From positions 1 to 64,000 of the forward strand of contig JAOASS010000013.1 in NCBI GenBank assembly GCA_030158485.1: a stretch of 64,000 nucleotides of DNA, given 5' to 3'. The stretch's first letter is position 1, and every line of letters starts with the position of its first letter. This document shows, one piece after another, positions 19,802-29,418 of the stretch. The notes under the pieces were generated by a model that saw nothing but the letters and a program-made list of their open reading frames with translations, was not told the DNA's origin and made no database searches. The translations under genes and the position numbers were made by a program. This stretch comes from Pseudobdellovibrionaceae bacterium (GTDB taxonomy: Bacteria > Bdellovibrionota > Bdellovibrionia > Bdellovibrionales > Bdellovibrionaceae).

Positions 19802-20080
19802 ATGACAAATTTTAAATTTGAAACCACAGTTCAAGTTTTGACAGAATCAGGACTTCACGCTAGACCGGCTGGAATTTTAGTCAAAGTAGCCAGCCAATTT
19901 AAATCTAAAGTTGAACTTGAGAAAAATGGTGTCAAAAAAAATGCCAAATCAATCATGAGCCTTCTTTCTCTGGGAGCTCTCCACGGAGACCATCTCAATT
20001 TAATTATTGAAGGTGAAGACGCTGAAGCGGCTGAAATGGAAATTAAAAAACTTTTTCAGAATATTTTCGAAATTTCATAA
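19802..20080 (+). CDS. ptsH: Phosphocarrier protein HPr
   Basis: A 92-residue HPr. The phosphorylated histidine lies in SGLHARPAG (His19 from this start) and the regulatory-serine region is KSIMSLLSLG (Ser50). I start at the ATG 19802, 11 nt after the AAAAGGA Shine-Dalgarno; the other ATG (19793) overlaps the upstream stop as TAATG but is only 2 nt from the Shine-Dalgarno. It relays phosphate from EI to the EIIA domain of the permease encoded upstream. Presence of the serine motif is typical of HPr, but no HPr kinase is seen in this window. Confidence 0.93.
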   Translation: MTNFKFETTVQVLTESGLHARPAGILVKVASQFKSKVELEKNGVKKNAKSIMSLLSLGALHGDHLNLIIEGEDAEAAEMEIKKLFQNIFEIS

Positions 20081-23672: not shown

Positions 23673-24035
23673 CTAAGAATGGACAATGGCTTTAAATTCC
23701 CCTGTGGTGAAGCGTTTCATATCAAAGGGCATTTTGCCTTTGTAATTCTCGGGCTGCATAAGCGGATCTTTATGAACTTTGGCGTTCACTTGATTGCGAT
23801 GAGCTTTAGATTTATAAACAATAAAAGCGAAAATAACTGTTTCATCCAATTTCAGCTTACAAAGCTTCTTAAACGGTACGCCCCACTCATTATCAAGTTG
23901 AGACCCTACACACTCATAATAATCAAGCGCCCCGTACTTCATCCAAACTTTACGGCCGATCGTGGCCATTTTTTTATAATCCTTTAATTTATTCTTTTTT
24001 ATGGGAATAATGAAGCCATCAACATATTTACTCAT
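23673..24035 (-). CDS. DUF1428 family protein (YbaA-like)
   Basis: A 120-residue cytoplasmic protein of the DUF1428 (YbaA) family, a dimeric alpha-beta barrel (ferredoxin-like) fold. Recognised from YVDGFIIPIKKNKLKDYKKMA at the start (outline), YGALDYYECVG, ETVIFAFIVYKSKAHRNQVN and the KMPFDMKRFTTGEF ending, each of which matches the family's conserved blocks. Length is normal. Biochemical function of the family is not established. Confidence 0.88.
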   Translation of the reverse strand: MSKYVDGFIIPIKKNKLKDYKKMATIGRKVWMKYGALDYYECVGSQLDNEWGVPFKKLCKLKLDETVIFAFIVYKSKAHRNQVNAKVHKDPLMQPENYKGKMPFDMKRFTTGEFKAIVHS

Positions 24036-24791: not shown

Positions 24792-24851
24792 TGGTGCCTC
24801 GGGCCGGACTTGAACCGGCACGCCCCTGTAAAGAAAGCTCAGGATTTTAAG
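24792..24851 (-). repeat. Partial tRNA-Leu copy (distal attachment site of an island)
   Basis: Sixty bases match the 3' part of the tRNA-Leu gene at 29327-29386 with a single mismatch (24834 A versus 29369 G), covering CCA, acceptor strand, T arm, variable arm and the anticodon loop, then stopping abruptly. Such displaced 3' tRNA fragments mark the far end of elements integrated by a tRNA-targeting tyrosine recombinase. Confidence 0.85.
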
Positions 24852-25037
24852 ATCTTAAGGCCACGTTTTATAAGTCACTGAAAATAAAGAAGTTTTTTAA
24901 TAATAACAAGAAGTTAGCTTGCATTTCTGATCACCGCAGATTCCCCTCTTTGACCGCTGGTTTCCTTGCTGTTGTCACCATTTTGTCACTACGAAATCAT
25001 GGTGACAGCAGTTATCCTGGGACTTAAAAAAAGTCAC
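24852..25037. other. Island left end, no intact gene
   Basis: No gene found. It holds a 13-bp inverted repeat with one mismatch, CTGTTGTCACCAT (24969-24981) and ATGGTGACAGCAG (24999-25011), with a third TGTCAC copy between them. The minus strand here reads a short C-terminus-like peptide (SDKMVTTARKP...) that stops at about 24920, possibly the remains of an integrase gene next to the attachment site. Confidence 0.35.
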
Positions 25038-25069
25038 TTGATTACTATACGCTATTAGCGTATAGTAAT
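25038..25069 (+). promoter_or_regulatory. Promoter covered by a 29-bp palindromic operator
   Basis: Arms ATTACTATACGCTA (25041-25054) and TAGCGTATAGTAAT (25056-25069) are perfect complements around one T. A promoter TTGATT (25038-25043), 17-nt spacer, TATAGT (25061-25066) lies inside it. This is the expected layout for autorepression by the HTH antitoxin of the downstream pair. Predicted transcription start is at about 25073, one base before the ATG. Confidence 0.8.
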
Positions 25070-25073
25070 TTTA

Positions 25074-25424
25074 ATGGAATTGTTTGAAGCGCCGGCCTTT
25101 ACGAAAGCCCTACCCGATTATCTCAACGATGATGACTACCGTGCGCTGCAAAAACTTTTAATTGCAAATCCAGAGGCCGGAGAAGTTATGCCTGGCACTG
25201 GAGGATTCAGAAAAATCCGCTGGCAAGATTCACGTCGAAACAAGGGTAAGCGCGGCGGCCTACGCGTTATTTATTACCATTTTTCTGAAGACCAGCAGAT
25301 TTGGTTTTTGACTATTTACGATAAAGACGAGGCTTCTGATTTAACAGCGGCACAAAAGAAAATGCTTAAAATGGCTATAGATTTAGAAAAACAAAATCGA
25401 TCTAAGGCACGGAGGAAGTTATGA
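25074..25424 (+). CDS. RelE/HigB-like toxin of a type II toxin-antitoxin pair
   Basis: A 116-residue basic protein of the RelE/ParE superfamily, predicted to be a ribosome-dependent mRNA interferase. Family features: GTGGFRKIRWQ, GKRGGLRVIYYHF, and IWFLTIYDKDEASDLTAAQ, the last being the strongly conserved C-terminal block of HigB-2/RelE toxins. The order toxin-then-antitoxin and the 4-bp ATGA overlap with the HTH gene are typical of higBA-type loci. No Shine-Dalgarno is present before the ATG, and the promoter places the transcript start almost on it. Confidence 0.85.
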   Translation: MELFEAPAFTKALPDYLNDDDYRALQKLLIANPEAGEVMPGTGGFRKIRWQDSRRNKGKRGGLRVIYYHFSEDQQIWFLTIYDKDEASDLTAAQKKMLKMAIDLEKQNRSKARRKL

Positions 25425-25744
25425 AAAAGAAACGTGATATTTTTAGTGAAATTATGTCCGGTGTTGAAAGCATGCAACGACAGCGCGAAGGAAAAATCAC
25501 CTTAAAAAACTATAAACTTCCCGAATCAGATCTTCCTGAAATCAGCGCTGATTTCATTCGTAAAACACGCGAAAAACTAAACATGTCACAAGGCTTGTTT
25601 GCCCGCCTTCTACATGTCAATCAACGAACGCTTGCAAATTGGGAGCAAGGCCGCAGCCGGCCCAATGATCAAGCCGTCGCCCTTATTCTTTTAGTTAAAG
25701 AATTCCCGGATACTATAGAAAAATTAAGAAGCATCGCTGCTTAA
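25421..25744 (+). CDS. HTH (XRE/NadS-like) antitoxin
   Basis: A 107-residue DNA-binding antitoxin. The helix-turn-helix is at about residues 45-90 (RKTREKLNMSQGLFARLLHV then RTLANWEQGRSRPNDQA), close to NadS/HigA-2 proteins. The N-terminal part (EIMSGVESMQRQREGKITLK) would be the toxin-binding region. It overlaps the toxin gene by 4 bp and is the likely ligand of the palindrome at 25041-25069. Confidence 0.87.
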   Translation: MKKKRDIFSEIMSGVESMQRQREGKITLKNYKLPESDLPEISADFIRKTREKLNMSQGLFARLLHVNQRTLANWEQGRSRPNDQAVALILLVKEFPDTIEKLRSIAA

Positions 25745-26010
25745 TTTATAAAGTTTGTTTTAACAGCGAAGGCTCAGATTTTTAGAATGAACCTTCCTGA
25801 TCGATCATTTGATTTTTAGGTAGTTTTTTAGAAGCCTATTCGGAGAATTCACCGCAGTCCACTTCCTGGAAGCGGCCCTGAAATTTCGTAATGCAAAGGC
25901 TATCTAGTTATAAATTTGCTGCTGAAAACGGAATAAAGGTCGCCTGTAAAGATTCGACGTACGTATTTAATTGGAGCCTCTGAATCGTTTGTTCGGCAGA
26001 ATCATAAAAC
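25745..26010. other. Gap between two toxin-antitoxin loci
   Basis: No intact gene. Around 25830-25911 the plus strand reads a short peptide ending GEFTAVHFLEAALKF and a stop at 25909-25911, which looks like the tail of a lost coding sequence; I cannot identify it. Confidence 0.3.
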
Positions 26011-26041
26011 TTGACAAAGGGTACTCTTAAGAGTACCCTTT
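26011..26041 (+). promoter_or_regulatory. Promoter with 26-bp palindromic operator
   Basis: AAAGGGTACTCTT (26016-26028) is followed directly by its perfect complement AAGAGTACCCTTT (26029-26041). A consensus -35 TTGACA (26011-26016) touches its left edge and a weak -10 (TACCCT, 26034-26039) lies in the right arm. It suits autorepression by the Phd/YefM-like antitoxin beginning at 26057, which has a GAGGTG Shine-Dalgarno. Confidence 0.75.
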
Positions 26042-26056
26042 AGATTGAGGTGACTT

Positions 26057-26314
26057 ATGAAAAGTGCTAATGCCAAAAAATTCCGTTCTGAGCTTAAAGA
26101 TTATATGGACGCTGCTGTTGGGGAACCTGTTCGCATCAGCCGCCGTGATGGACAAAGCTTTGTTCTGATGTCTGAACAAGTCTACGAGGGTTTTCGTAAT
26201 GAAATTCAATCACTGCAACGACGACTTTTAGGGATGAGCGAAATCCTTGATGGTAAAACCTACCCTCTCAGTAAGAGCGAAGACCGCACGGCCCGCTTCA
26301 AGAAAAGTAAGTAA
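26057..26314 (+). CDS. Phd/YefM-family antitoxin
   Basis: An 85-residue antitoxin. The N-terminal Phd/YefM DNA-binding fold is seen in SANAKKFRSELKDYMDAAVG, then EPVRISRRDGQSFVLMSEQVYEGF, the family's core beta hairpin and helix. The C-terminal tail (YPLSKSEDRTARFKKSK) would wrap the toxin. Stop and toxin start share one base (TAATG), so the pair is coupled. Confidence 0.87.
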   Translation: MKSANAKKFRSELKDYMDAAVGEPVRISRRDGQSFVLMSEQVYEGFRNEIQSLQRRLLGMSEILDGKTYPLSKSEDRTARFKKSK

Positions 26315-26685
26315 TGGCCGTTTATTTTTTTCAGTCTTCACAGTTTGAGGAAATTCGCTCTCAAATCGAACAGCACCTTTACGATTCCGTTTTGGAAATA
26401 GAGCAAGATTCAAAACTTGCTCTTCGTTCCGTGCAACAATTCAATGATACCATCGACCGGCTGATGGAAACCCTTGAGCAAATGTATAAAACTCAAAATC
26501 CTAAAGATACTGAGGGTGAAAAATCGTTCCCTATCCGTGAGGGGCGATACCGGGTGTTTTTCAAGGTTGTGTCCCGCGGATCACAGGACTTCGACATTAC
26601 CTTTTTGGATATTGATGATAATAAGCAGTCCAATTTGGATAGATTCCCTGCCCATCGCTTCATTACTTTTGAAAGTGACGAGTAA
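26314..26685 (+). CDS. RelE/ParE-like toxin partner of the Phd/YefM antitoxin
   Basis: A 123-residue protein coupled to the antitoxin. The helical N-terminal half (FEEIRSQIEQHLYDSVLEIE, LALRSVQQFNDTIDRLMETL) followed by a beta sheet with FPIREGRYRVFFKVVSRG and FDITFLDIDDNK fits the RelE/ParE fold, although it is longer and more acidic than usual. Assignment rests on fold-like pattern and on the antitoxin; target (ribosome or gyrase) is unknown. Confidence 0.7.
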   Translation: MAVYFFQSSQFEEIRSQIEQHLYDSVLEIEQDSKLALRSVQQFNDTIDRLMETLEQMYKTQNPKDTEGEKSFPIREGRYRVFFKVVSRGSQDFDITFLDIDDNKQSNLDRFPAHRFITFESDE

Positions 26686-26824
26686 ACTACCCTAGGTCTA
26701 AGGCTTTGCCTTCTTCGACATGTCTACTATATCATTTCCTTTGATTCAATTCGCGTAATTCTATTTGGCCCAAGATTTGTAATCATAGAGCTGTGCGACT
26801 TTAAAATCATATTAGGAGATTCTT

Positions 26825-27493
26825 ATGCCAAAAAAAATTGCTTTAATTTGCGTGTTGTCAATACTTTCAACACTATCTGCATTTGCTGCTGAAAAAACCT
26901 TCGAAAGTGCAATGTCAAACCTCGTTTACTCGTTGAAAGATTACAAGAATTTTCGTGTAGGCGCTAATGAGAATCATTTTATTGGCTTAGCATCGATAAA
27001 AAAGAGTTCTGAATTTTCGAAATGTAAAGACACGAATAATCTCAACTCATGTACTAGAACCATTTCAAGATTAGTGCTTGAAACATTAGAAGGATACGAT
27101 CAAGACGCGGCTTACTTTTTTGAAGATTTTGAGAAAATGGATTTAGATAGTACTCAAAGTGAAGCGGTTCAAAGAATAAAAACAGCCACTACAATGATAA
27201 CTGGCAAACGAACTGCTTCCGAATTTCAATACCCAGAAAGCGGTAAATGCTCAAAACGTGAATTGGAGAGCTCATACGAAAAGGTTACACCAGCGACTCC
27301 TTTAACGAAGTCGGCATCTTTTAACCGGGTTTTTGTCAGTGATCTGATTTGTCAAGGCCTTCTGAAGATCGACGATATTAATCAAGTCGACAAAAACGTC
27401 ATGATGAATTTGTATAATACAATCTTAGTAGATATAAAAAGCGATAAAGAAAACTTTTCTAAAGTTGATGAGTTATTTCCTGAACTTAAGTAA
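26825..27493 (+). CDS. Secreted protein, unknown function
   Basis: A 222-residue protein with a signal peptide (MPKKIALICVLSILSTLSAFA). The mature region is mostly helical with four cysteines (FSKCKD, NSCTR, GKCSK, LICQG). An AGGAG Shine-Dalgarno precedes the ATG. It lies inside the tRNA-Leu island, downstream of the toxin-antitoxin genes but with its own leader. No family recognised. Confidence 0.7.
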   Translation: MPKKIALICVLSILSTLSAFAAEKTFESAMSNLVYSLKDYKNFRVGANENHFIGLASIKKSSEFSKCKDTNNLNSCTRTISRLVLETLEGYDQDAAYFFEDFEKMDLDSTQSEAVQRIKTATTMITGKRTASEFQYPESGKCSKRELESSYEKVTPATPLTKSASFNRVFVSDLICQGLLKIDDINQVDKNVMMNLYNTILVDIKSDKENFSKVDELFPELK

Positions 27494-27593
27494 GGCAAGT
27501 GCCTCCATAAGCTCTATGAAAGTTGGTACCGAGTTGCTGAAGTGGTCGGTGGCAGTGAATCTTTTGTAAGGCAGAATGGCACGAGAGACCGCA

Positions 27594-27827
27594 CTACTTC
27601 TTAGGAGATTCCTTTTCGACGGCAATCTCAACGGCTTCGCCTTTTTTCAAAGAAACGAAGTCCTTGCCAAGTTTTTCGCGATTAAATTTATAGTTTTCAC
27701 CAGCAATTTCAATGGTCACAGTTTTTAAATCAAAACTAACAATTTTTCCTTTGATATTAAGCGATTCCACCGAGGCATGTGAAGTGATTGCCACGAAGAG
27801 ACTGAAACATAAAATGATTGTTTTCAT
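27594..27827 (-). CDS. Small periplasmic beta-barrel-like protein
   Basis: A 77-residue protein with a signal peptide (MKTIILCFSLFVAITSHA) and a mature part of about 58 residues (IKGKIVSFDLKTVTIEIAG then YKFNREKLG, FVSLKKGEAVEIAV) that reads as five short beta strands, like OB/SH3-type DUF5666-like modules. It overlaps the upstream gene by 4 bp, so both are one operon. Function unknown. Confidence 0.65.
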   Translation of the reverse strand: MKTIILCFSLFVAITSHASVESLNIKGKIVSFDLKTVTIEIAGENYKFNREKLGKDFVSLKKGEAVEIAVEKESPKK

Positions 27828-28312
27828 CTAACAGCTCCTTTTGGCTCTGCATTGAATCCGCCCTTGGGAACGCCGTCGCCTGCACCACGGAAAGCTCCCT
27901 TGGTTGAGGAGTTGACTCCGGCATCACGAGCGCAAGAATCAAAGGTGCCGCAGTCATGTAAGCCGCCTTTGCAGGCTCCTGCTACTTTCATATCAAAGTT
28001 TTTACCCCGGTAGTTGCAGTCTAAATTGGTTTCATATTTGCAGATTCGATTTGCAACGACCCCAGGTCCACACAAGGAGCCGAAAAGTTCAGTTACCTCT
28101 GTGTCACGGCCTGGCTGACAATTTCGCAGAATTTCATCAAGCCCCATTCTCATGATGTCGTCTCTCAAACGTGTAGCTTCTTCTGGTGAAACAGCTGCGT
28201 TCGCCGCCATCGGCAACGTTAAGCACCTTGTTACTCCTGGCGTGCACCTAGCATGCGAAAATTCCGCAAACAGCAGCGTTCCCATAATTATCGTGAAAGC
28301 AAATGTCTTCAA
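27824..28312 (-). CDS. Cysteine-rich secreted protein
   Basis: A 162-residue protein with a signal peptide (MKTFAFTIIMGTLLFAEFSHA) and ten cysteines in the mature part (for example RCTPG, TRCL, NCQPG, LCGPG, ICKYE, DCNYRG, ACKGG, DCGTFDSCA). The C-terminus is Gly/Lys-rich and low in complexity. The next gene's ATG overlaps its stop. No family recognised; location in the island marks it as accessory. Confidence 0.65.
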   Translation of the reverse strand: MKTFAFTIIMGTLLFAEFSHARCTPGVTRCLTLPMAANAAVSPEEATRLRDDIMRMGLDEILRNCQPGRDTEVTELFGSLCGPGVVANRICKYETNLDCNYRGKNFDMKVAGACKGGLHDCGTFDSCARDAGVNSSTKGAFRGAGDGVPKGGFNAEPKGAVR

Positions 28313-28687
28313 GCAAACCTCCTGCCTAATCCGATAATTCTACTGGAATACTTCTAGAATAATAAGACCATATTCGTTGCCACTGGACCTTGATGTAGTG
28401 CCAACAGGAAACACCGTCATGCACACTTGAAGAATCGTACCCCGACAAAAAGTGAATGCCGCTTTATGTGGCGGATTTCAGCCACCATTAAGTTTCAATC
28501 AAATCCTTCAAAGCGTTGCTACCGTTTTGAAATTACAATGAAAATTCAAAAATATTGTTGATTTGAACGTAGGCGCCTACATCCCTGACGCCGTGGCTCA
28601 TACTGTACGCCCTAAGCAACGACCCTTATTTTACCCAAAAACTTCGACGTTTTTGACATTCCCTTTTGATTACGAGATGACTAGTTT
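28313..28687. other. Gap upstream of the MNT gene
   Basis: About 375 bp without a supportable gene. It contains a 12-bp perfect palindrome GTAGGCGCCTAC at 28569-28580 and a short repeat GTGGC / GCCAC near 28469-28487. It must carry the promoters of the cysteine-rich protein (minus) and of the nucleotidyltransferase (plus). Confidence 0.4.
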
Positions 28688-29014
28688 ATGGCCGCAAAAC
28701 GAGATCCAAAACTTAAAAAAATAGTGGAAACCTTAAAGGAAGAGTTCAACCCTTCCCGCCTATTTTTATTTGGATCAAGGGCCAATGGGAATTCCCGCGC
28801 TGATAGCGATTGTGATTTTGTTTTGGTTGTCCCAAAAAATAAAAAATCTAGAATTACTAACATGTCTAAGGCCAGTGACTTACTGTGGGATAAATTTAAA
28901 ATTTCGGCTGATGTTTTCGTGTACTCGCAAAAAGAATTTGATGAATGGAAAGATGAGTTTAGCTCTATCCCCGAAACTGCCTTAAATACGGGCCGGGAGA
29001 TTAAGCTTGGCTGA
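28688..29014 (+). CDS. MNT-type minimal nucleotidyltransferase (MntA-like antitoxin)
   Basis: A 108-residue protein with the pol-beta-type nucleotidyltransferase core: LFLFGSRANGNSRADSDCDFVLVV gives the GS...DxD metal site (outline), and ADVFVYSQKEFDEW supplies the later acidic strand. In characterised MntA/HepT systems the MNT protein AMPylates the HEPN RNase and so neutralises it. The HEPN gene follows at once in another frame. Length is normal for MNT domain proteins. Confidence 0.85.
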   Translation: MAAKRDPKLKKIVETLKEEFNPSRLFLFGSRANGNSRADSDCDFVLVVPKNKKSRITNMSKASDLLWDKFKISADVFVYSQKEFDEWKDEFSSIPETALNTGREIKLG

Positions 29015-29385
29015 ATCGAAAATGGTTCAAGTATGCAGCCCGCGATCTAAAAGTCGCAAAGCAGACTTATGCTGCAAGCTCTGAGTTTAAAAATATTGCA
29101 GCTTTTCATGCTCAGCAATGTGCGGAAAAAGCTATCAAAGGATTTTTAGCATTTCATAAAATCAGGTTTTTCAAAATTCATAAGTTAGATGAATTGGCTA
29201 TAGACGTTGAAAAAGTCGATAAGGAATTGGCGAAACTTATTTTAAAGTCTAAAGAATTTGGAGAACTTGAGGCTATCTGCAGTAGATTGAGAAGAGTCAG
29301 TCATCATTCAATCTCTGAAAAGAGAATGGTGCCTCGGGCCGGACTTGAACCGGCACGCCCCTGTAAAGGAAGCTCAGGATTTTAA
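29011..29385 (+). pseudogene. HEPN-domain protein (HepT-like toxin), truncated at the tRNA
   Basis: The frame open from 29005 reads WFKYAARDLKVAKQ, FHAQQCAEKAIKGFL and FKIHKLDEL, unmistakable HEPN blocks, then LEAICSR where family members continue into the R-Y-P-D segment. After that the homology stops and the frame runs antisense through the tRNA-Leu 3' half (...PRAGLEPARP...) to a stop at 29385. No ATG, GTG or TTG start lies before the domain; CTG at 29011, overlapping the MNT stop, is the only near-cognate candidate. The RNase motif therefore seems lost, and I call it a truncated gene. Confidence 0.7.
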
Positions 29386-29418
29386 GTCCTGTGCGTCTAC
29401 CAATTTCGCCACCGAGGC
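29327..29418 (-). tRNA. tRNA-Leu (anticodon UAA)
   Basis: Minus-strand gene with GCCTCGG acceptor paired to CCGAGGC, discriminator A and encoded CCA. The anticodon stem CAGGA/TCCTG encloses loop CTTAAAA, giving anticodon UAA for UUA codons. A long variable arm and the T arm (GGTTCAAGTCC) are present. The gene forms the right boundary of the island. Confidence 0.96.

Follow-up and report, generated by a model that had tools for sequence, protein, structure and literature searches.

Segments that are flanked by attachment (att) sites and contain neither integration nor transfer genes have been described as cis-mobilizable elements (CIMEs), and NBU1 and MTnPi4 are listed among the integrative and conjugative or integrative and mobilizable elements (ICEs, IMEs) that reside in the 3' end of a tRNA-Leu gene (PMC5704250). 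Class II of the HEPN/MNT type VII toxin-antitoxin (TA) systems is without the RX4HXY motif and is not yet validated as a TA system (PMC7641770). Integration of ICEKp1 displaces the terminator of the tRNA gene, so that its first gene, int, is co-transcribed with the tRNA (PMC13023037). Here we analyzed a window of 64,000 nucleotides from a Pseudobdellovibrionaceae bacterium (GCA_030158485.1, contig JAOASS010000013.1, positions 1 to 64,000), in which a 4.5-kb island with TA genes and an MNT/HEPN pair is bounded by the gene for tRNA-Leu(UAA) and a copy of its 3' part. With a probability of about 0.72, this island is a decayed, CIME-like att-flanked remnant of a formerly larger element; as an object it is of a known kind, one more decayed tRNA island. 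The part worth following is the coupling of MNT/HEPN pairs to tRNA genes, which provides a testable rule for the phylum.

The island is delimited by a direct repeat of 60 nt, 59 of them identical, whose two copies lie in the same orientation at a spacing of 4535 bp (Table 1). No second long direct repeat was found between positions 20000 and 35000, and a search of the whole 2.48-Mb source genome (G000; G and L denote the genomes and loci compared) with tRNA-Leu(UAA) returned as strong matches only the gene and the fragment at 24792 (E 1e-23). Since the fragment is situated on the 3' side of the tRNA gene, in the same orientation, and ends exactly at the CCA, it shows the geometry left by 3'-end integration. 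Smith-Waterman comparison of the 3' flanks of about 50 relatives gave scores of 58 for the window, 60 for G046 and 36 for G047, far above shuffled controls, which mostly reached 12-16 and at most 19. A tRNA remnant in the flank of G044, convincing by eye, failed the shuffling. The preliminary description had proposed a 59/60-bp copy of the tRNA-Leu 3' half 4.5 kb from the intact gene, in an arrangement derived from integration. The copy was confirmed by ARAGORN, the repeat search and the whole-genome match, and the arrangement by the 3'-side position, the orientation, the CCA end and the recurrence of such fragments in relatives. The repeat reflects site-specific integration rather than chance, and attL and attR of one site (59/60 repeat, tRNA positions 33-92) flank the island, as in a CIME. 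Base composition does not distinguish the island from its surroundings. The antisense strand of tRNA-Leu (29320-29385) encodes VPRAGLEPARP, and a similar tail, PRAGIEPARPC, ends an open reading frame (ORF) in G062 (L051); this antisense peptide is a source of spurious C-termini in annotation.

The absence of an intact integrase, also part of the earlier account, was borne out. The profile PF00589 matched elsewhere in the genome and nowhere inside the island, and tblastn with nine recombinases of relatives (four tyrosine, five serine) detected no remnant between 24.8 and 29.4 kb. The island is without integrase or transfer genes, as CIMEs are, and has no recombinase of its own that would make it an autonomous ICE, IME or prophage. 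Nor does the source genome contain an integrase of the lineages seen at the tRNA-Leu site, the best local matches being 20-32%, with the exception of one 41-residue stretch at 49%.

Comparison across the family, where the tRNA query was matched in 65 of 66 genomes and the neighborhoods of about 55 contexts were compared, placed the island in a wider pattern. Besides the window, 3' fragments of tRNA-Leu were found in G016, G046 and G047 (42.5, 6.2 and 0.89 kb from the gene, respectively) and on other contigs in G052 and G062, with a weaker candidate in G058. In the alignment, the fragments of G016, G046, G052, G062 and G000 start at positions 29-33 and end at the CCA, while the decayed G047 fragment begins at about position 25-29; these recurring starts point to one crossover zone in the anticodon arm. 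A tyrosine integrase directly adjoins the fragment in G016 (a 42.5-kb element) and in G062, where it is encoded at L051:680-1756. The congener G001 has an ICE-like element at this tRNA that shares no genes with the island: its tyrosine integrase, encoded at L010:13017-14150, is separated from the 3' end of the intact tRNA by 157 bp, and TraG/VirB4-type, TrbI and FtsK proteins are encoded nearby. An integrase 50% related to that of G001 occupies the equivalent place in G029. In G063, G028, G032, G064 and G031, 1-3 bp separate the end of a large serine recombinase frame from the tRNA-Leu 3' end; some of these frames probably read into it, and more than one lineage has chosen this tRNA. A comparable 6.2-kb island in G046 shows a resolvase fragment as its only recombinase trace. 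Genes on the 3' side of tRNA-Leu are shared with 0-8 other contexts and those on the 5' (guaB) side with up to 30; the 3' side is hypervariable across the family and the guaB side conserved, and, within the genus, tRNA-Asp and a second tRNA-Leu show the same one-sided variability. Taken together, fragments, integrases and one-sided variability mark tRNA-Leu(UAA) as a common point of insertion in the Bdellovibrio family, used by elements with tyrosine as well as serine recombinases. In G032 (L062:8445-8743), about 205 nt interrupt the anticodon loop of tRNA-Leu(UAA); this insert matches the Rfam group I intron RF00028 at 48.3 bits, just under the gathering threshold of 50.

The gene pair closest to the tRNA consists of an MNT and a HEPN gene. 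The MNT protein carries the GS-X10-DXD-type motif (GSRANGNSRADSDCD in the alignment; PF18765/PF01909), and its gene is intact. The HEPN gene is broken: its upstream start, a TTG at 29007 corresponding to that of the G001 gene, does not share the reading frame of the domain owing to a short 5' gap relative to G001, and a CTG is the sole start available to the ORF in the HEPN frame. The conserved A-x-x-Y-R-Y-P region and the last helix are missing, and the frame reads into the antisense strand of the tRNA as VPRAGLEPARPCKGSSGF, while intact relatives comprise 122-135 aa. The pair therefore has no intact HEPN toxin as in a type VII system, and of the MNT/HEPN cargo announced earlier the MNT half stands and the HEPN half, frameshifted near its start and deprived of its C-terminus, does not. 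The MNT is 79% identical to the MNT behind tRNA-Asp in G001, above most of the shared genes tested between G000 and G001 (guaB 86%, ptsI 67%, murI 60%, lysA 53%), which suggests transfer from one tRNA site to another rather than descent at a fixed position.

The TA cargo fared better. A HigB2-family toxin gene stands beside a helix-turn-helix (HTH) antitoxin gene, as in HigBA modules of the HigB2 type, and a Phd antitoxin gene adjoins that of a ParE/RelE-like putative toxin; all these genes are open, and both are predicted TA pairs. A perfect palindrome precedes each operon, as expected for autoregulated TA operons. The label of a defence cassette, by comparison, is weak, since the PADLOC matches for the MNT were at domain level only (best E 3e-9, candidate models), the remaining proteins had no specific match, no curated anti-phage system was matched, and HEPN is broken.

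Table 1. Features of the island in the window, and tRNA-linked MNT pairs and tRNA-closed units in the compared genomes.
Feature	Position	Strand	Length	Evidence or remark
Intact tRNA-Leu(UAA), attachment gene	29327-29418	-		ARAGORN; Rfam tRNA 62.4 bits
Proximal repeat copy, within intact tRNA-Leu(UAA)	29327-29386			direct-repeat search
tRNA-Leu(UAA) 3' fragment (positions 33-92), putative displaced attB half / distal att site	24792-24851	-		
Palindrome before higB	25041-25069			perfect, 14-bp arms, operator-like
HigB2-like toxin (RelE superfamily)	25074-25424	+	116 aa	PDB 5JA9/5JA8 HigB-2, E 2e-24; PF06296 below cut-off
HTH (HigA/MqsA-type) antitoxin	25421-25744	+	107 aa	PF01381 5.8e-9; TIGR03830 below cut-off
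Palindrome before phd	26016-26041			perfect, 13-bp arms, operator-like
Phd/YefM-type antitoxin	26057-26314	+	85 aa	PF02604 6.6e-8
ParE/RelE-like putative toxin	26314-26685	+	123 aa	PF05016 0.0026, below cut-off; adjoins Phd; no PDB relative by sequence
Exported protein, no family	26825-27493	+	222 aa	signal peptide by eye
Small exported protein	27594-27827	-	77 aa	signal peptide by eye; weak ExtJ match below cut-off
Cys-rich exported protein, no family	27824-28312	-	162 aa	signal peptide by eye
MNT nucleotidyltransferase (MntA-like), intact	28688-29014	+	108 aa	PF18765 1.1e-10
Broken HEPN, class II (PF05168)	29007-29385	+		start out of frame, C-terminus lost
MNT/HEPN or MNT/HI0074-like pairs 16-300 bp behind tRNA	L053:8992-9974 (G047); L069/L090 (G021, G012); L167; L169; L171-L173	same as tRNA		
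Further such pairs	L193, L202, L203, L211, L212, L214, L222-L224, L269, L271, L277, L284, L286	same as tRNA		
Unit at tRNA-Cys, G049	L212:3193-4047		0.78 kb	intact MNT + HEPN operon only; 19-bp copy of tRNA 3' end
Unit at tRNA-Leu, G047			0.89 kb	pair only; decayed 64-bp copy of tRNA 3' end
Unit at tRNA-Asn, G222	L286		1.35 kb	27-bp copy of tRNA 3' end
Unit at tRNA-Met, G031			2.2 kb	59-bp copy of tRNA 3' end; pair opposed to tRNA
Unit at tRNA-Met, G037			3.2 kb	MNT only; 31-bp copy of tRNA 3' end

The history that we propose begins with an element carrying a tyrosine-recombinase-type site, which long ago would have entered tRNA-Leu(UAA) at the anticodon arm. The tRNA 3' half that it brought would have restored the gene, displacing the original 3' half of the host to 24792, and later deletion of the integrase and of any transfer genes would have left the 4.5-kb att-flanked remnant. 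Addiction through the two type II TA pairs plausibly counteracts loss of the island, and a same-specificity integrase arriving beside it, such as the G001 element might supply, could move the remnant in cis.

Several points weigh against this history. An empty site was seen in no close relative, and the left flank of the island is common to neither congener (G001, G002). The two TA pairs look intact, which is not required of a decaying island; a non-autonomous mobile unit would look identical in sequence; and the presumed type of the ancestral recombinase is taken from other genomes only. As candidates for an empty site, the congeners had to be rejected, the G001 site being occupied by the ICE-like element and the left neighbor in G002 unrelated. 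For tRNA-Asp and the second tRNA-Leu in G000, G001 and G002, the 5' sides are syntenic and the 3' sides all unrelated, so that a precise insert is unreadable; at tRNA-His, synteny exists on neither side in these genomes. An empty site for the G049 tRNA-Cys unit was likewise dismissed, as the downstream gene is not beside a tRNA in congeners. The DUF1428 gene left of the island (23676-24035) is 88% identical to that of G057, a member of another genus, and absent from both congeners, and is probably a recent transfer; a DUF1428 gene beside tRNA-Leu in G036 was rejected as the ancestral left flank, in view of the scattered distribution of the gene and of only 59% identity for the G036 copy.

Among the alternatives, two or more successive integrations with loss of the inner att sites, in which the MNT/HEPN pair arrived apart from the TA and exported genes, would be compatible with a decayed remnant. 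We regard such accretion as unlikely but worth keeping in mind: related pairs stand alone behind other tRNAs, as exemplified by the 79% identical MNT at tRNA-Asp in G001, but inside the island the tRNA 3' end was not found a third time. Somewhat less probable still is the satellite-like or minimal mobile unit favored by the preliminary description, namely a 4.5-kb circle regularly moved in trans by ICE or prophage integrases of the same tRNA. It would account for the well-kept att-like repeats (59/60) and the open TA genes, several integrase lineages use the tRNA-Leu site in the family, and other recombinase-less att-flanked units exist (G047, 0.89 kb; G049, 0.78 kb; L286, 1.35 kb; L186, 2.2 kb). 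However, the cargo occurs at no other tRNA-Leu locus examined, integrases of these lineages are missing from the source genome and HEPN is decayed; an att-flanked island without integrase is a textbook CIME (PMC5704250). A tandem duplication of the tRNA or a local rearrangement that left the fragment behind, with ordinary chromosomal genes in between, is very improbable: the left-flank genes are not conserved either, so rearrangement is active at the locus, but fragments with nearly equal limits exist in five further genomes, in two of which an integrase adjoins the fragment, and the genes in between are common to no other tRNA-Leu locus examined.

Besides the remnant itself, the analysis uncovered a preference of MNT/HEPN pairs for positions behind tRNA genes. 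Relatives of the HEPN protein in the phylum lie within 2.5 kb of a tRNA gene in 11/20 cases, all 11 with the tRNA 3' end facing the pair, and so do 11 of the 40 PF18765 (MNT) loci in the family, 10 of them facing; combined, 21/22 have this orientation (binomial 5e-6). At 17 loci, 16-203 nt separate the CCA from the start of a pair encoded on the strand of the tRNA, the tRNAs being those for Leu, Asp, Pro, Gly, Glu, His, Gln, Cys and Met. Class I pairs (PF08780), sampled phylum-wide, have a tRNA 46-300 bp upstream in 8/30 cases, all same-strand. In a ParE control, a tRNA was present within 1.5 kb at 3/30 loci, with one, generously counted, standing behind it on the same strand; Fisher tests against this control gave p 0.036 (9/40 vs 1/30) and p 0.026 (8/30 vs 1/30). 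Since the adjacency sets share a few loci (G047, G033) and the ParE control is small, the strength of the pattern comes mainly from the orientation bias and the spacer lengths. The pairs often begin 16-40 nt from the CCA and are often too near for a promoter, and spacers often hold a ribosome site alone, as in ACCA-CTTTCAGTTCAAGGGAGTTCT-ATG of G012. A uniform lack of promoters was rejected, as a possible TTGACA was noted by eye before the MNT behind tRNA-Asp in G001. Placing MNT/HEPN pairs directly behind tRNA genes is apparently a wider and undescribed habit in the phylum; no mention of it was met in those of the main HEPN/MNT papers that were searched for it or in literature searches, with most subscription papers outside reach. 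The source genome itself shows another tRNA-Leu followed by a class I MNT pair (L203) and, in C14 (L248), a tRNA-Asp with a second HigB/HTH-like pair, seen by eye, less than 2 kb behind it. Two records titled Streptomyces griseus (L258, CALQIT020000044.1; L264, CALQIT020000015.1) appear to be Bdellovibrionota and are probably mislabelled.

For some of these pairs, a copy of the tRNA 3' end closes the unit; most other tRNA-linked pairs lack one. Complete tRNA-closed units of 0.8-3.2 kb without a recombinase would presumably pass from one tRNA gene to another with the help of trans-acting integrases. We tentatively propose, as an idea that may well prove wrong, that MNT/HEPN pairs of both classes form a recurrent tRNA-coupled cassette in the usual place of the integrase, expressed by read-through from the tRNA promoter, with some units mobile in trans and the pair of the window as a decayed, inverted instance. 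Should the pairs be transcribed together with the tRNA, the expression of an RNA-targeting toxin would be tied to that of a tRNA gene, and few integrase-dependent hitchhikers would be smaller than the att-flanked units of 0.78-0.89 kb.

Of the known systems, the CIMEs (PMC5704250) are closest to the island, sharing attL/attR-like repeats, the lack of integration and transfer genes and the 3'-tRNA site used by ICE-like elements of relatives. With the ICEs and IMEs at the tRNA-Leu 3' end it has the site and the duplicated tRNA end in common; it differs in being without integrase, relaxase and transfer genes. The HigB2/HigA2 system (PDB 5JA8/5JA9) is matched over about 100 residues of HigB at E 2e-24 and in its toxin-first order, whereas the HTH partner is matched by HTH models only. 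As in class II HEPN/MNT systems (PF05168/PF01909; PMC7641770), an MNT and its HEPN partner form one operon, but here HEPN is broken. The related MNT/HEPN loci resemble int of ICEKp1 (PMC13023037) in supplying the first gene behind a tRNA on the same strand, often with no room for a promoter; they differ in that a TA pair takes the place of the integrase, and the pair of the window is opposed to its tRNA.

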